Virus record (IMG/VR): IMGVR_UViG_3300032293_000769
Location: 1-21,677 of that record
Length of the DNA: 21,677 bases
Reading direction: 5' to 3' (one strand)
From: a virus
How positions within the stretch are numbered: position 1 is the first letter of the stretch; every line of letters begins with the position of its first letter. Below the pieces are notes generated by a model. The model worked only from the letters and a program-made list of their open reading frames with translations, ran no database searches and was not told where the DNA came from. Both the position numbers and the translations under genes were made by a program. Of the stretch, positions 1,414-11,437 are shown one piece after another.

Positions 1414-1501
1414 ATAATTATATATGTCAAAAACTAAATTAACTTTTTTGGATTTTGAAACCGTTGGAAAAATTTTCGGAGGTTCCGACTGTCCAACCTT
1501 T

Positions 1502-1759
1502 TTAGTAAACCAGAATTACATGTTCGATAGCAACGACATAAAATTCTTTATCTAATTCTTTACCTGAAACTTTTACTGCACCGTTCCAATTAATTAGAAC
1601 TTCATCTCCAACAGAAACTTCATCAACTTTAGGACCAATAGATTCAACTAATGCTCTATCAGGACCTTCTGATGATTTAAGAATGATGCCAAATTCAGTT
1701 TGTTTTTCACCTGCAATGCGTGAAACAACAATCTTGTCCTTTAATGGTTTCAAAATCAT
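1502..1759 (-). CDS. groES: GroES-like co-chaperonin
   Basis: An 85-residue Cpn10-fold protein. The start MILKPLKDKIVVSRI matches the first strands of GroES, residues about 16-32 form the mobile loop with the hydrophobic GIIL contact (24-27), and VGDEVLINWNG and EFYVVAIEHV match the later strands. It is slightly shorter than bacterial GroES (about 97) and shorter than T4 gp31 (111). It should cap host GroEL, probably to help fold the capsid protein as gp31 does in T4; that role is inferred. The RBS is AAAGG, 7 bases before the ATG. It follows a long repeat-rich leader (1760-2157) and is followed by tRNA-Met. Confidence 0.9.
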   Translation of the reverse strand: MILKPLKDKIVVSRIAGEKQTEFGIILKSSEGPDRALVESIGPKVDEVSVGDEVLINWNGAVKVSGKELDKEFYVVAIEHVILVY

Positions 1760-2157
1760 GATTTACCTTTCAATCAAATTAGTATGTAGTCATTGTTGAG
1801 AATACTGTTATGTGTTTAAGAGAATTCAAACGAGCCCCGTAAGGGACAAATCCGTTATTATACTTCTCTCCTATCATCGTCAATGCCACCTCAGCATGTG
1901 GCGTTCTCCATAGCTAGAGTGAGTTAGACAGGATTCTTATCTTCCTTAACAGTTAGGATTGCTTATTCTTTCTTGCACATTCTCAACAATGCTCTTTGTC
2001 CCTAAACAAAGAACCTTGTGTCTTGCCTGAGTGGCTCCGGACGACAATCCTCAGGCCTGAATGAGGATACTCGGACACAGCCATTCGTCTTTGTATTTTT
2101 CGCCACTTTGTGCATAACAGAATAGGGATTATCTGTCATAGGCATAGCACCTCTGTT
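1760..2157 (-). other. Repeat-rich intergenic stretch upstream of groES, candidate structured RNA
   Basis: These 398 bases hold no convincing long gene but much self-complementarity. A perfect 13-bp inverted repeat (1791-1803 with 1979-1991) closes a 175-nt interior. Inside are GCCAC/GTGGC (1885-1889/1898-1902) and a nested stem series (1819-1824/1864-1869, 1829-1832/1853-1856, 1835-1838/1843-1846) whose wobble pairs work only in the minus-strand RNA. Outside is a 7-bp hairpin (1993-1999/2006-2012) and a nested element at 2017-2079. A weak promoter-like pair, TTGACG-N15-TATAAT (1883-1857), could serve groES, but its spacer is short. It could be a groES leader or an independent small RNA; no known RNA family was recognised. 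Confidence 0.45.
2002..2139 (-). CDS. Possible small protein (45 aa)
   Basis: An ORF beginning MTDNPYSVMHKVAKNTK with GAGGTG eight bases before this ATG. A second ATG two codons earlier is too close to that site. It would be the first gene after tRNA-Gly. Its second half coincides with the nested stem-loops at 2017-2079, so the bases may be constrained as RNA rather than as protein. No family is recognised and the residue composition is only moderately protein-like. Confidence 0.3.
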   Translation of the reverse strand: MTDNPYSVMHKVAKNTKTNGCVRVSSFRPEDCRPEPLRQDTRFFV

Positions 2158-2231
2158 TGGAGCGGGATGACAGAATCGAACTGACAACGAAAGGTTGGAA
2201 ACCTTTAGTTTTACCATTAAACTAATCCCGC
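2158..2231 (-). tRNA. tRNA-Gly (UCC)
   Basis: A 74-nt cloverleaf with a perfect acceptor stem GCGGGAT/ATCCCGC, discriminator T and encoded CCA (2160-2158). The anticodon stem AAAGG/CCTTT encloses TTTCCAA, giving anticodon TCC for GGA codons. The T-loop is TTCGATT. It begins two bases after the stop codon of the 42-residue ORF. Confidence 0.95.
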
Positions 2232-2639: not shown

Positions 2640-2795
2640 TTATATCCTTTAAACTAAAATTTGGAGCGGTGGTCTGCTATGCTCAGATAACTCAAGAGGG
2701 TATCTCAAATCGTACTATTACACACCGCATATCCTGCTTACCGGTTACAGGGTCACTTAATGACGGAAGTTTTGCTGTTTCACAACAGTAAATCT
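2640..2795 (-). other. Untranslated leader with stem-loops
   Basis: The stretch between the promoter at 2797-2825 and the 64-residue gene holds no gene. The minus-strand RNA can form a hairpin with a GTGA loop (CTGTT/AACAG) at its 5' end. A perfect 6-bp stem GCGGTG/CACCGC (2723-2728 with 2666-2671) encloses a second stem AGATA/TATCT (2701-2705 with 2685-2689). No known riboswitch was recognised. Confidence 0.4.
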
Positions 2796-2796
2796 A

Positions 2797-2825
2797 ATTA
2801 TATACTTATCTATGATGATTGTCAA
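2797..2825 (-). promoter_or_regulatory. Sigma70-type promoter, TTGACA-N17-TATAAT
   Basis: A perfect consensus -35 (2825-2820) and -10 (2802-2797) with a 17-bp spacer; transcription should start near 2790. It reads into the 64-residue gene, tRNA-Thr, the 42-residue ORF and tRNA-Gly. Confidence 0.85.
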
Positions 2826-2995: not shown

Positions 2996-3176
2996 AATGT
3001 ATCCTATTATACACACTATTAACTGTAATGTCAATAATAGGATACATTTTATCCTTAATCTTTACCTTATCGTTACGCCTTATAGCTTTGTTACTTTTAC
3101 GGTGACTCCCCGCTTTACGAAACAATGCCAGTTTGACAAGATAGTTTCGTGGTTGGGGAGTATTTTTCTTCTTCAT
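2982..3176 (-). CDS. Small basic conserved phage protein (64 aa)
   Basis: The start MKKKNTPQPRNYLVKLA is chosen because AAGGAG lies seven bases upstream; an in-frame ATG 29 codons earlier lacks such a site. The segment LFRKAGSHRKSNKAIRR resembles small basic proteins seen in many tailed phages; function is unknown, and that resemblance is from memory. The last roughly 20 residues look atypical because they are encoded by the inverted repeat and promoter at 2996-3048 and by the first bases of tRNA-Arg. The ancestral protein may have ended earlier and been extended when the tRNA block was inserted. Confidence 0.75.
   Translation of the reverse strand: MKKKNTPQPRNYLVKLALFRKAGSHRKSNKAIRRNDKVKIKDKMYPIIDITVNSVYNRIHSVHS
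2996..3048. repeat. 15-bp perfect inverted repeat around a promoter
   Basis: The arms 2996-3010 and 3034-3048 are exact reverse complements (AATGTATCCTATTAT and its partner), separated by 23 bp. One arm contains most of the -10 of the promoter at 3006-3034, and the other begins at the edge of its -35. It could be an operator or a hairpin near the start of the tRNA transcript. Confidence 0.85.
3006..3034 (-). promoter_or_regulatory. Sigma70-type promoter for the tRNA pair, TTGACA-N17-TATAAT
   Basis: A perfect -35 (3034-3029) and -10 (3011-3006) with a 17-bp spacer, inside the 3' end of the 64-residue gene. Transcription should start near 2999, only about four bases before the tRNA-Arg 5' end. 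Confidence 0.85.
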
Positions 3177-3282: not shown

Positions 3283-3795
3283 TTATTGTGGGAGTTTCCA
3301 TCCTAGAGGTTCCGGATCAATAGGACTGTCCGGATTTTGAATGCCAAAGAATACTTCCCACAATTTTTCTTTTACTGCAAACTTACTGAATAGTCCAGAT
3401 TCCATACCATGTGCTTCTATTTCCCATGGTTGAACCCAATAATCCAAGTTATCCGAATCAACCCTAATACCTTTCCAACGAGTTAATGTTTCGTTGGTTT
3501 CACCATAAACATATTGTTTAATGTGTGTCATTTCATGAGCTAGAGTTTTTAATATCTCGGCTGCACCAATACCAGAATGAATCTCAATTTCAAACTCTCT
3601 TGCTTTACGAGAACTATTATACTCCAATATCTGAGCGTAACCGTAAGCTTCTATTTTGGAACTAAATTTAATTCGCAAATAGATATTTTCTAGTAATTTT
3701 GGTGAAATGAGTTCTTGAGCGTAGAACTGCGCCGCTCGCTTGACGTACGGACGAAATTGTTTTTTATCGGGACAACCAACTATACTTAACTGCAT
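3283..3795 (-). CDS. Zinc metallopeptidase-like protein (HExxH)
   Basis: A 170-residue protein with the zinc motif HEMTH (87-91) in the context TLAHEMTHIKQYVYGE. Downstream, PWEIEAHG (123-130) would supply the third ligand, Glu125 or Glu127. This pattern belongs to small SprT/gluzincin-like putative peptidases found in phages. No signal peptide is seen, so it should act in the cytoplasm or in the virion; the substrate is unknown. The ATG at 3795 is preferred because AAGGAG lies nearby; a GTG at 3852 in the same frame is possible but less supported. A CATAAATA at 3866-3859 resembles the late promoter motif, one mismatch from TATAAATA. Confidence 0.75.
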   Translation of the reverse strand: MQLSIVGCPDKKQFRPYVKRAAQFYAQELISPKLLENIYLRIKFSSKIEAYGYAQILEYNSSRKAREFEIEIHSGIGAAEILKTLAHEMTHIKQYVYGETNETLTRWKGIRVDSDNLDYWVQPWEIEAHGMESGLFSKFAVKEKLWEVFFGIQNPDSPIDPEPLGWKLPQ

Positions 3796-6113: not shown

Positions 6114-6502
6114 TACTTGTTCACTCCGCCTTTATCTGTTTTTCTTTTTATTTCAGCGATTTGTTCATCAGTAAGAATCCTTAGAGCTTCTTTGGCCTTC
6201 TGATTGGAATAACCAAAGTACACCTTAATACATTCTATATTCTTGTCGGCCTCTGATTTCTGCCACGGTTGGAATTTCCGTTTCATAGACCTTATGGTAT
6301 TTAGAAGATATTGATATTGAAGGTCTTTATCGACCTCAGGATACAAATTCATCTCATTCGCATATAGAACACAATCCATGTGATAAGACAAAGCTCTATT
6401 GACCACAAAGGGTGTATAGTCTTTTGCATCTATGTCATCGTGGATTACAGACTTTTTAGTTTGGAGTATTGAGGGTATAATCTCCTTGAATAAATCTGGC
6501 AT
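6113..6502 (-). CDS. 62: Clamp loader small subunit (gp62)
   Basis: A 129-residue protein between the gene 44 and regA homologues, the position of T4 gene 62. In T4, gp62 and four gp44 subunits load the gp45 clamp. It is shorter than T4 gp62 (187), as in cyanophage homologues. MPDLFKEIIPSILQTKK and FVVNRALSYHMDCVLYANEMN are characteristic of the family. It has no ATPase motif, as expected. It is joined to its neighbours by TAATG overlaps on both sides. Confidence 0.92.
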   Translation of the reverse strand: MPDLFKEIIPSILQTKKSVIHDDIDAKDYTPFVVNRALSYHMDCVLYANEMNLYPEVDKDLQYQYLLNTIRSMKRKFQPWQKSEADKNIECIKVYFGYSNQKAKEALRILTDEQIAEIKRKTDKGGVNK

Positions 6503-10093: not shown

Positions 10094-10114
10094 GCATATT
10101 TGTGGTATACTTGT

Positions 10115-11437
10115 TTATCTGCCAACTTGTGGCAAATATTTCGCCTTGGTATCTTCCCAAGACATTTTGATTAGGTCATCATAGAAAAGTGTTTCATATG
10201 AAACATTATTTTTTTTCTGTAATTGCCTAATTCGACCCTTAGCGTACTTGGTTTTCCAAATATTGGCAAGAGCTTCTTCACTGGTATCAAACGACTTTAC
10301 CAGTTCAGAATCGGTAATCTCTTTACGGAGAAATTCATTGGTGTTATTATAGAGAGGACTAAAATAGATACCACGTTGATGTTCGGTACGTTGCAAATGT
10401 TTTGGTATTTGTAGTTTAGAATACGCAAAATTTAATGAACGATTTTTATGGTCTCGTTTGAGTGGAAGACCTTGTAGATTTTTGGCATCCCACCATTCAA
10501 AATATTTACGAGTATGATTTTCTTTAATCCAATCAAATACTATTTTTTTAGTTGATCTTGATGGCTCAAATGCCACCGAACCACTAGAAAAACCCATAGG
10601 ATTCCAATGTTCGAGATTATCATATTGAGAAAGTCCATTTGCTTTTGTTTTTCCATATAGTGATGTTGTAGTAACGCCAACAAGAGTGTCTCCATATTGC
10701 CTTTTCCAATCTGCTTGAACTGTATCAGATAAACACATTAATGCCAATAATTTACCACCCATGTAATTAAAACCTAATGGTTGTAACGGAACGATGGTGG
10801 ATCCAATTGCAGTATGATTAATCATGTGTTGCTGTGTCTTAACATCTCTCGACCATCCGATTGCGGTATCTCTCGGAGTCAAATCCAGGAAGTCTGAGGA
10901 GATACAGATAACACCAAGATATTTTTTAGTTACTTCATCGGTAAGAACGTAGAATAAATTACGGCCAATATTAGAATTGTTTTTCATTGTAGATGAGAAT
11001 GTACGAATGGCATTCCATTTTTCGGCATAGGGACCATTTGAAAGAACCATAACTGGTTTCAATTTCTCATAATCATCAGGATCTTTTGGCATCCAGAAAT
11101 TACTTTTAACTTCATTAATGATTTCTTCCTGTTTTGAATCAACCATTTCAATATCGGTACCCCACAATTGAGAAGTTTCATGGACAGGATATCGTTCTTT
11201 TATTTCGCACCATTTTTGATATAAAGTGTATTCACGAACATCCATACCTGAAACATAAGTTAAATCATCAATCAAGGATTGTTTCACATATTCATCTTCT
11301 ATACTTTTGGTCAACGAATCAATATTTTCTTTTTGCCAAATTTTCCATTGTTCATCAACAGAAGGTATTGTTTTTGTAGATACAATAACTTCTTTTTCAC
11401 CAAATAGTGTAGACTTAATTTGAATTTCTTTTGCCAT
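10115..11437 (-). CDS. DUF4338 (DruA-like) family protein
   Basis: A 440-residue protein. The region 130-265 has the DUF4338 pattern: YLGVICISSDFLDLTPRDTAIGW (173-195), an IVPLQPLGFNYMGGKLLALM segment (about 215-234), DWKRQYGD (243-250), then VTTTSLYGK. DUF4338 includes DruA of the Druantia anti-phage system, whose biochemistry is unsettled. Flanking N- and C-terminal regions (1-125, 300-440) show nothing known. It is the last gene of the 47-46-def chain, overlapping the def stop (TAATG), so it is probably expressed with recombination genes. A role in DNA handling or host takeover is inference. No other Druantia gene is nearby. Confidence 0.7.
   Translation of the reverse strand: MAKEIQIKSTLFGEKEVIVSTKTIPSVDEQWKIWQKENIDSLTKSIEDEYVKQSLIDDLTYVSGMDVREYTLYQKWCEIKERYPVHETSQLWGTDIEMVDSKQEEIINEVKSNFWMPKDPDDYEKLKPVMVLSNGPYAEKWNAIRTFSSTMKNNSNIGRNLFYVLTDEVTKKYLGVICISSDFLDLTPRDTAIGWSRDVKTQQHMINHTAIGSTIVPLQPLGFNYMGGKLLALMCLSDTVQADWKRQYGDTLVGVTTTSLYGKTKANGLSQYDNLEHWNPMGFSSGSVAFEPSRSTKKIVFDWIKENHTRKYFEWWDAKNLQGLPLKRDHKNRSLNFAYSKLQIPKHLQRTEHQRGIYFSPLYNNTNEFLRKEITDSELVKSFDTSEEALANIWKTKYAKGRIRQLQKKNNVSYETLFYDDLIKMSWEDTKAKYLPQVGR

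Follow-up and report, generated by a model that had tools for sequence, protein, structure and literature searches.

The gap between a tRNA-Gly gene and a groES-like gene in a phage DNA contains a long perfect inverted repeat. This raises the question whether a structured RNA is encoded here and, if so, whether it is a leader of groES or an RNA in its own right. The DNA analysed (21,677 nucleotides, here called the window) is, by comparison with known phages, part of the genome of a T4-like phage, and the capsid protein encoded in it shares 66% identity with the counterpart in Methylophilales phage Melnitz. The gap is bordered by two minus-strand genes, tRNA-Gly(UCC) (2158..2231), recognized by ARAGORN and Rfam, and an 85-aa groES-like ORF (1502..1759), whose distant phage relatives include an annotated GroES. 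On the same strand a candidate sigma-70 promoter, TTGACA-N17-TATAAT, agrees with the consensus in 12 of 12 letters (2797..2825), a second perfect candidate is found at 3034-3006, and a terminator-like hairpin with a U-run follows the 3' end of groES (1476..1488), all three being assigned by consensus only. The promoters and the terminator-like site outline a putative minus-strand operon in the order tRNA-like RNA D, a small ORF, tRNA-Thr, tRNA-Gly, RNA B, RNA A and groES, where A and B are the two RNAs described below. Another long perfect inverted repeat (2996-3010 with 3034-3048), located between tRNA-Arg and the next ORF, overlaps the second promoter. A groES gene within a tRNA cluster is also present in Stenotrophomonas phage DLP_6 (L110, 1986-2234).

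The sequence CATTGTTGAGAAT at 1791-1803 is, as predicted, the exact reverse complement of 1979-1991, and the repeat cannot be extended. The original prediction held that such a perfect 13-bp repeat was unlikely by chance within 400 bp. Perfect inverted repeats of at least 13 bp occurred in 3 of 5000 dinucleotide-preserving shuffles of 1760-2157. Shuffles of the whole window contained on average 0.3 such repeats, 19 of 100 having one or more, and the repeat alone is thus suggestive and not decisive. Folding of 1760-2157 was better than that of shuffled sequences for the minus strand (z = -2.6) as well as for the plus strand (z = -2.9), and folding energy thus does not tell which strand matters.

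A conserved block in the gap was first seen through IMG/VR relatives of the groES gene. At its ends are UUGAGAAU and AUUCUCAA; it also contains a strand GAAAGAnUAAGCAAUCC and, on the 3' side, UUAAACA....AACAGU. Scans of IMG/VR for these motifs added dozens more contigs. A covariance model (R1) built from 41 sequences of less than 93% mutual identity gave 76 matches in 99 loci, namely the window and 75 others, one of which is a bare P1 hairpin; E-values of the short-calibrated models used here are rough. Some contigs are near-duplicates, and the distinct copies of the RNA, called A, number 52. L127 (76 bits) and L121 (38 bits), both of them distant relatives in the family, are outside the R1 training set. 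The homologues were partly gathered by sequence patterns, which inflates motif conservation and leaves covariation at free positions and in P1 unaffected; the interior, too, was at liberty to vary. There is one copy of A per genome in 19 of 19 records, the largest of 236 kb. No convincing match to A was detected in Melnitz, Pelagibacter phage Mosig, DLP_6 or Limnohabitans phage DC31. A blastn search with the window region and seven diverse copies of A gave no match in 50,697 phage records, the plasmids searched gave none, and the exact motifs of A and B were absent from 84,980 bacterial and archaeal genomes. The 71.7-kb record L007, from a close relative, has neither RNA, and both may thus be dispensable. 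The junction in L007 retains the CAAC of P1 before GACTACATAC, carries no target duplication and looks like a deletion.

RNA A occupies about 205 nt of the minus strand (1789..1993), where R1, of which the window is itself a member, scores 179.5 bits. In the fold derived by comparison (alignment A1) the molecule is closed by helix P1, whose strands CAUUGUUGAGAAU (5' strand, 1979..1991) and AUUCUCAACAAUG (3' strand, 1791..1803) are the two arms of the repeat. Among the 41 homologues, 10 of the 13 P1 pairs show double-sided changes and 97.7% of the cells are paired. The joining strand GUGnnnGAAAGAnUAAGCAAU (1959..1978) is mostly unpaired and conserved, with several invariant or nearly invariant columns. 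It is followed by the P2 hairpin, UCCU-AACUGUUA-AGGA (1943..1958; 1958-1955 with 1946-1943), which contains the top covarying pair of the alignment (columns 59-68: C-G in 18, U-A in 16 and A-U in 7 sequences). Within the P2 loop ACUGUU (1948..1953) forms a 6-bp pseudoknot with AACAGU (1804..1809), which abuts the 3' side of P1; in pair 66-268 of the pseudoknot U-A was found 33 times, C-G seven times and G-C once (E 0.15 against the tree-aware null). The P3 domain (1869..1933), closed by UCCU 1933-1930 with AGGA 1872-1869, has double changes in three of four pairs, and the P5 hairpin inside it (GCCA/UGGC, 1902-1899/1888-1885) in four of four. In the P6 arm (1820..1868), GAGA 1868-1865 pairs with UCUC 1823-1820 in 93.9% of the cells. 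The interior of this arm is replaced as a whole from one phage to another; at least four mutually unrelated modules were seen, besides a group of short interiors. The conserved unpaired UUAAACA (1813..1819) forms seven invariant columns, its letters being also part of one search pattern used to gather the homologues.

In the helices of A taken together 96.1% of the cells pair, compared with 40-58% when the partner strand is slid by one to three columns, and double-sided changes occur in 23 of 35 pairs. Covariation was evaluated with our own R-scape-like script, not R-scape itself, the null being alignments simulated on the tree in which each column keeps its number of changes. Among all columns the five top-covarying pairs were P2 59-68, P1 14-275, P5 122-139, P1 7-282 and pseudoknot 66-268 (E 0 to 0.15); covariation beyond phylogeny is thus present in the proposed helices. 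In L127, a sequence outside the model, five P1 pairs are changed (CAUGGUCAAGCCU with GGGCUUGACCAUG) and all are still paired, and in the L121 pseudoknot, ACCGCU with AGCGGU, two pairs are altered on both sides. The 41 homologues have 46 G-U cells and 18 A-C cells in the helices, indicating that the RNA is made from the minus strand, and every tRNA flanking a copy of A is on that same strand. A conserved protein reading frame, the other explanation considered for the conservation, was not found: no frame remains open across A in any of the 52 homologues, whichever strand is read. The homologues, the covariation, the lack of an Rfam match and the lack of a reading frame thus lend strong support to the predicted new structured phage RNA of the minus strand. 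By this comparative evidence the inverted repeat marks a new RNA family.

The original prediction treated the region as one element. Two RNA families, found apart in other phages, are present in it. The 7-bp hairpin at 1993-2012 and the nested element at 2017-2079, described as neighbours of the repeat, are real, but both are parts of the second RNA, B, which occupies about 165 nt of the minus strand (1994..2158) directly downstream of tRNA-Gly and directly upstream of A. The corresponding model, R2, matches 1978-2159 with 141 bits (alignment A2) and gave 41 matches in all, 40 of them beyond the window. About 16 copies of B are joined to A; the remaining ones stand alone or are followed by a bare P1-like hairpin. 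In four loci A has shrunk to a bare P1 hairpin right behind B (L086 5824-5864, L090 1066-1106, L098 5961-6001 and L099 496-536).

Comparison of the B copies indicates a multi-helix RNA, a second new family. Its helices are paired in 96.5% of the cells, compared with 34-49% when slid. The 3' hairpin with the loop UUUAGGGA (1995..2010), equivalent to the predicted 7-bp hairpin, has double changes in four of four tested pairs and 99% paired cells, whereas the GGAUUGUCGUCC hairpin (2039..2050), located within the predicted nested element, is nearly invariant. A long-range helix between 2150..2152 and 2066-2064 alternates between AGG/CCU and UCC/GGA in different subtypes, with double changes in three of three pairs, and a GGC/GCC loop pairing is weaker (80% of cells). 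In all 27 sequences the loop UCCCUA (2123..2128) and UAGGGA (2004-1999) are complementary, except that the last pair is kept in 26. The two probably form a pair of kissing loops; since they are otherwise invariant and give no covariation, this is a proposal and not a proven pairing. The copy of B in the window departs from its relatives after UCGUCC, where it has GGAGCCACUCAGG in place of the usual AAnAGUAnn, and may thus be partly decayed. The strand ACAA of B (2019-2016) can pair with UUGU of the 5' strand of P1 of A, and this pairing covaries (columns 202-235 and 203-234). Because B and P1 share this strand, joined copies may fold in alternation.

When five copies of B were compared by blastn with the 50,697 phage records, one record was hit, that of the isolated Limnohabitans phage DC31 (PQ492658), in which B is unannotated and lies just behind a likewise unannotated tRNA-like gene. 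This phage can be cultured, which makes knock-out and pull-down tests feasible. In DC31 (L100 3949-4262; about 44964-45275) B stands alone, and the domain behind it is a different one, closed by a long stem, UUAUAGUUCAGUAUAUUUC with GGAAUAUACUGAACUAUAA. The strand before the last hairpin of B, ACUAUAAU, competes for this pairing, a possible switch.

The neighbourhood of A bears on what the RNA may do. A tRNA is found within 300 nt in 50 of the 52 copies, and the 54 tRNAs that flank A within 150 nt all share its orientation. Downstream of 31 copies a tRNA begins within 150 nt, in most cases 3-16 nt past P1, and about a dozen copies have a P1 that starts inside the CCA of the preceding tRNA. A canonical sigma-70 promoter ends 9 nt before P1 in L065 (TTGACA-N17-TATAAT), 18 nt before it in L013 (TTGACA-N18-TATAAT) and 21 nt before it in L022. 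Such a promoter can be present where no tRNA directly precedes A; most other copies have none.

The interpretation that we consider probable is that A and B are stable noncoding RNAs acting in trans, made with and processed from tRNA operons. They would be transcribed within the operons and released when the tRNAs are trimmed, or be started from a promoter of their own, and would then act as stable RNAs during infection. Several other readings were weighed. That A is a long groES leader, as had been suggested for the window, acting as a riboswitch or a thermosensor, would agree with its conserved pocket-like strands and with the distance of about 30 nt between its end and the groES start in the window and eight other copies. 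However, groES follows within 100 nt in only these 9 of the 52 copies, and the other 43 have tRNAs or other genes downstream. The leader reading is thus largely refuted by context and highly improbable. A purely cis-acting role, in which A (and B) would be a folded spacer that places or protects tRNA ends, or steers RNase processing or decay, with no role after excision, is rather unlikely. It would account for the tight packing against tRNAs and for the overlap of P1 with CCA ends, but for a spacer A is elaborate and its unpaired strands are highly conserved, the core of A is unchanged whatever tRNA or gene flanks it, and some copies follow a promoter and not a tRNA.

It could also be argued that A and B are one RNA machine with B as its 5' module, as B abuts A in the joined loci and the covarying ACAA/UUGU pairing gives them a shared strand. 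This is very unlikely, since most of the large records have A but no B, and many others, DC31 included, have B but no full A; the two are thus separate genes, joined in some cases. Finally, the inverted repeat might mark the ends of a small mobile DNA element, a reading to which the presence and absence of A in close relatives (L007) and the bare P1 hairpins in L086, L090, L098 and L099 would lend themselves. It has hardly any credibility, because A is single-copy in every one of the 19 records, the L007 junction, deletion-like and still carrying CAAC, lacks a target duplication, the repeat ends covary with each other with G-U pairs included, and the interior is conserved and structured.

In A the most conserved unpaired strands, GUGnnnGAAAGAnUAAGCAAU and UUAAACA, meet at the junction of P1, P2 and the pseudoknot, where the contact with a partner would be expected. 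This partner might be a translation or tRNA-metabolism factor, a defence protein or a second molecule of the RNA itself. Tentatively, and with less confidence than for the trans-acting role itself, we suggest that this surface serves to bind a single factor involved in translation or in tRNA metabolism, or a defence protein attacking these. Phage tRNA arrays are usually taken as codon or anti-nuclease supplements. More speculatively still, and on present evidence doubtful, A and B might belong to a broad, unrecognised set of tRNA-array RNAs whose folded or multimeric bodies act in trans as decoys for host factors, in counter-defence or in the takeover of translation, with P6 setting the specificity. 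To our knowledge ROOL and GOLLD, two structured phage RNAs of this kind of location, are still unexplained. A and B add two further well-defined families of tRNA-array RNAs, for which the available sequences suffice to derive consensus structures.

At gathering scores, tRNAs were all that Rfam 15 identified in the window. When 1700-2240 and 13 homologous loci were scanned at lenient thresholds, the matches were limited to tRNA, a permuted tmRNA elsewhere and chance matches, and the window region thus matches no family besides tRNAs. In location the closest parallel is with rnaC and rnaD of T4 (the species 1 and species 2 RNAs), two small stable RNAs that lie in tandem behind a tRNA in the T4 cluster, at a distance of 1-6 nt. 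They are shorter than A and B (139 and 119 nt), and rnaC ends in a tRNA-like T arm, whereas A and B have none. When R1 and R2 were run on T4 with filters off, the best scores were 8.1 and 5.1 bits, neither at rnaC/rnaD, and a covariance model of RNA D gave no real match there. We know of no function assigned to rnaC or rnaD.

In kind A and B are nearest to ROOL and GOLLD, structured phage RNAs that contain kissing loops and pseudoknots and are encoded near tRNA islands (PMC12286853). The location in which these are found is shared by A, with a tRNA within 300 nt of nearly all copies. GOLLD often exceeds 800 nt (PMC12286853), far above the 165-240 nt or so of A and B, and the assembly into a homo-oligomeric RNA-only cage is a trait of ROOL and GOLLD. 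The ROOL and GOLLD models of Rfam did not match A or B. The permuted tmRNA of aquatic phages is another phage-encoded stable RNA (PMC9004378); unlike it, A and B have no tRNA-like domain, and the tmRNA models did not match them. One contig (L017) carries A as well as a permuted tmRNA (3490-3750, minus strand). No homology to any of these RNAs was found, and A and B are filed, on comparative grounds, outside the named families, as two families new to an already known kind of phage RNA. No paper naming A or B was found in a literature search with limited reach into subscription journals, and an earlier description is possible.

Mimicry of ribosomal RNA, suggested by the short shared words AGUCCCGCAA and AGAUACC, was tested in sense and antisense orientation against E. 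coli 16S and 23S rRNA and rejected, as A, B and the element of L071 and L076 scored no better than shuffled sequences. The latter is a short RNA-like element with GGUCAGAUACC upstream of A (L071, about 10110-10200; L076, about 6340-6433; both minus strand), and its likeness to the 790 loop of 16S rRNA was not significant. RNA D gave one marginal antisense match to rRNA (p 0.03, uncorrected).

RNA D itself (2662-2730, minus strand) is tRNA-like, with a cloverleaf-like fold, a UCCA end and an anticodon-like loop AUACCCU. Its T-arm loop is AGCAUAG in place of the usual TTCGANC, and it is missed by both ARAGORN and the Rfam tRNA model. RNA D is kept in dozens of loci, and in L034 a pair of its acceptor stem is compensated.
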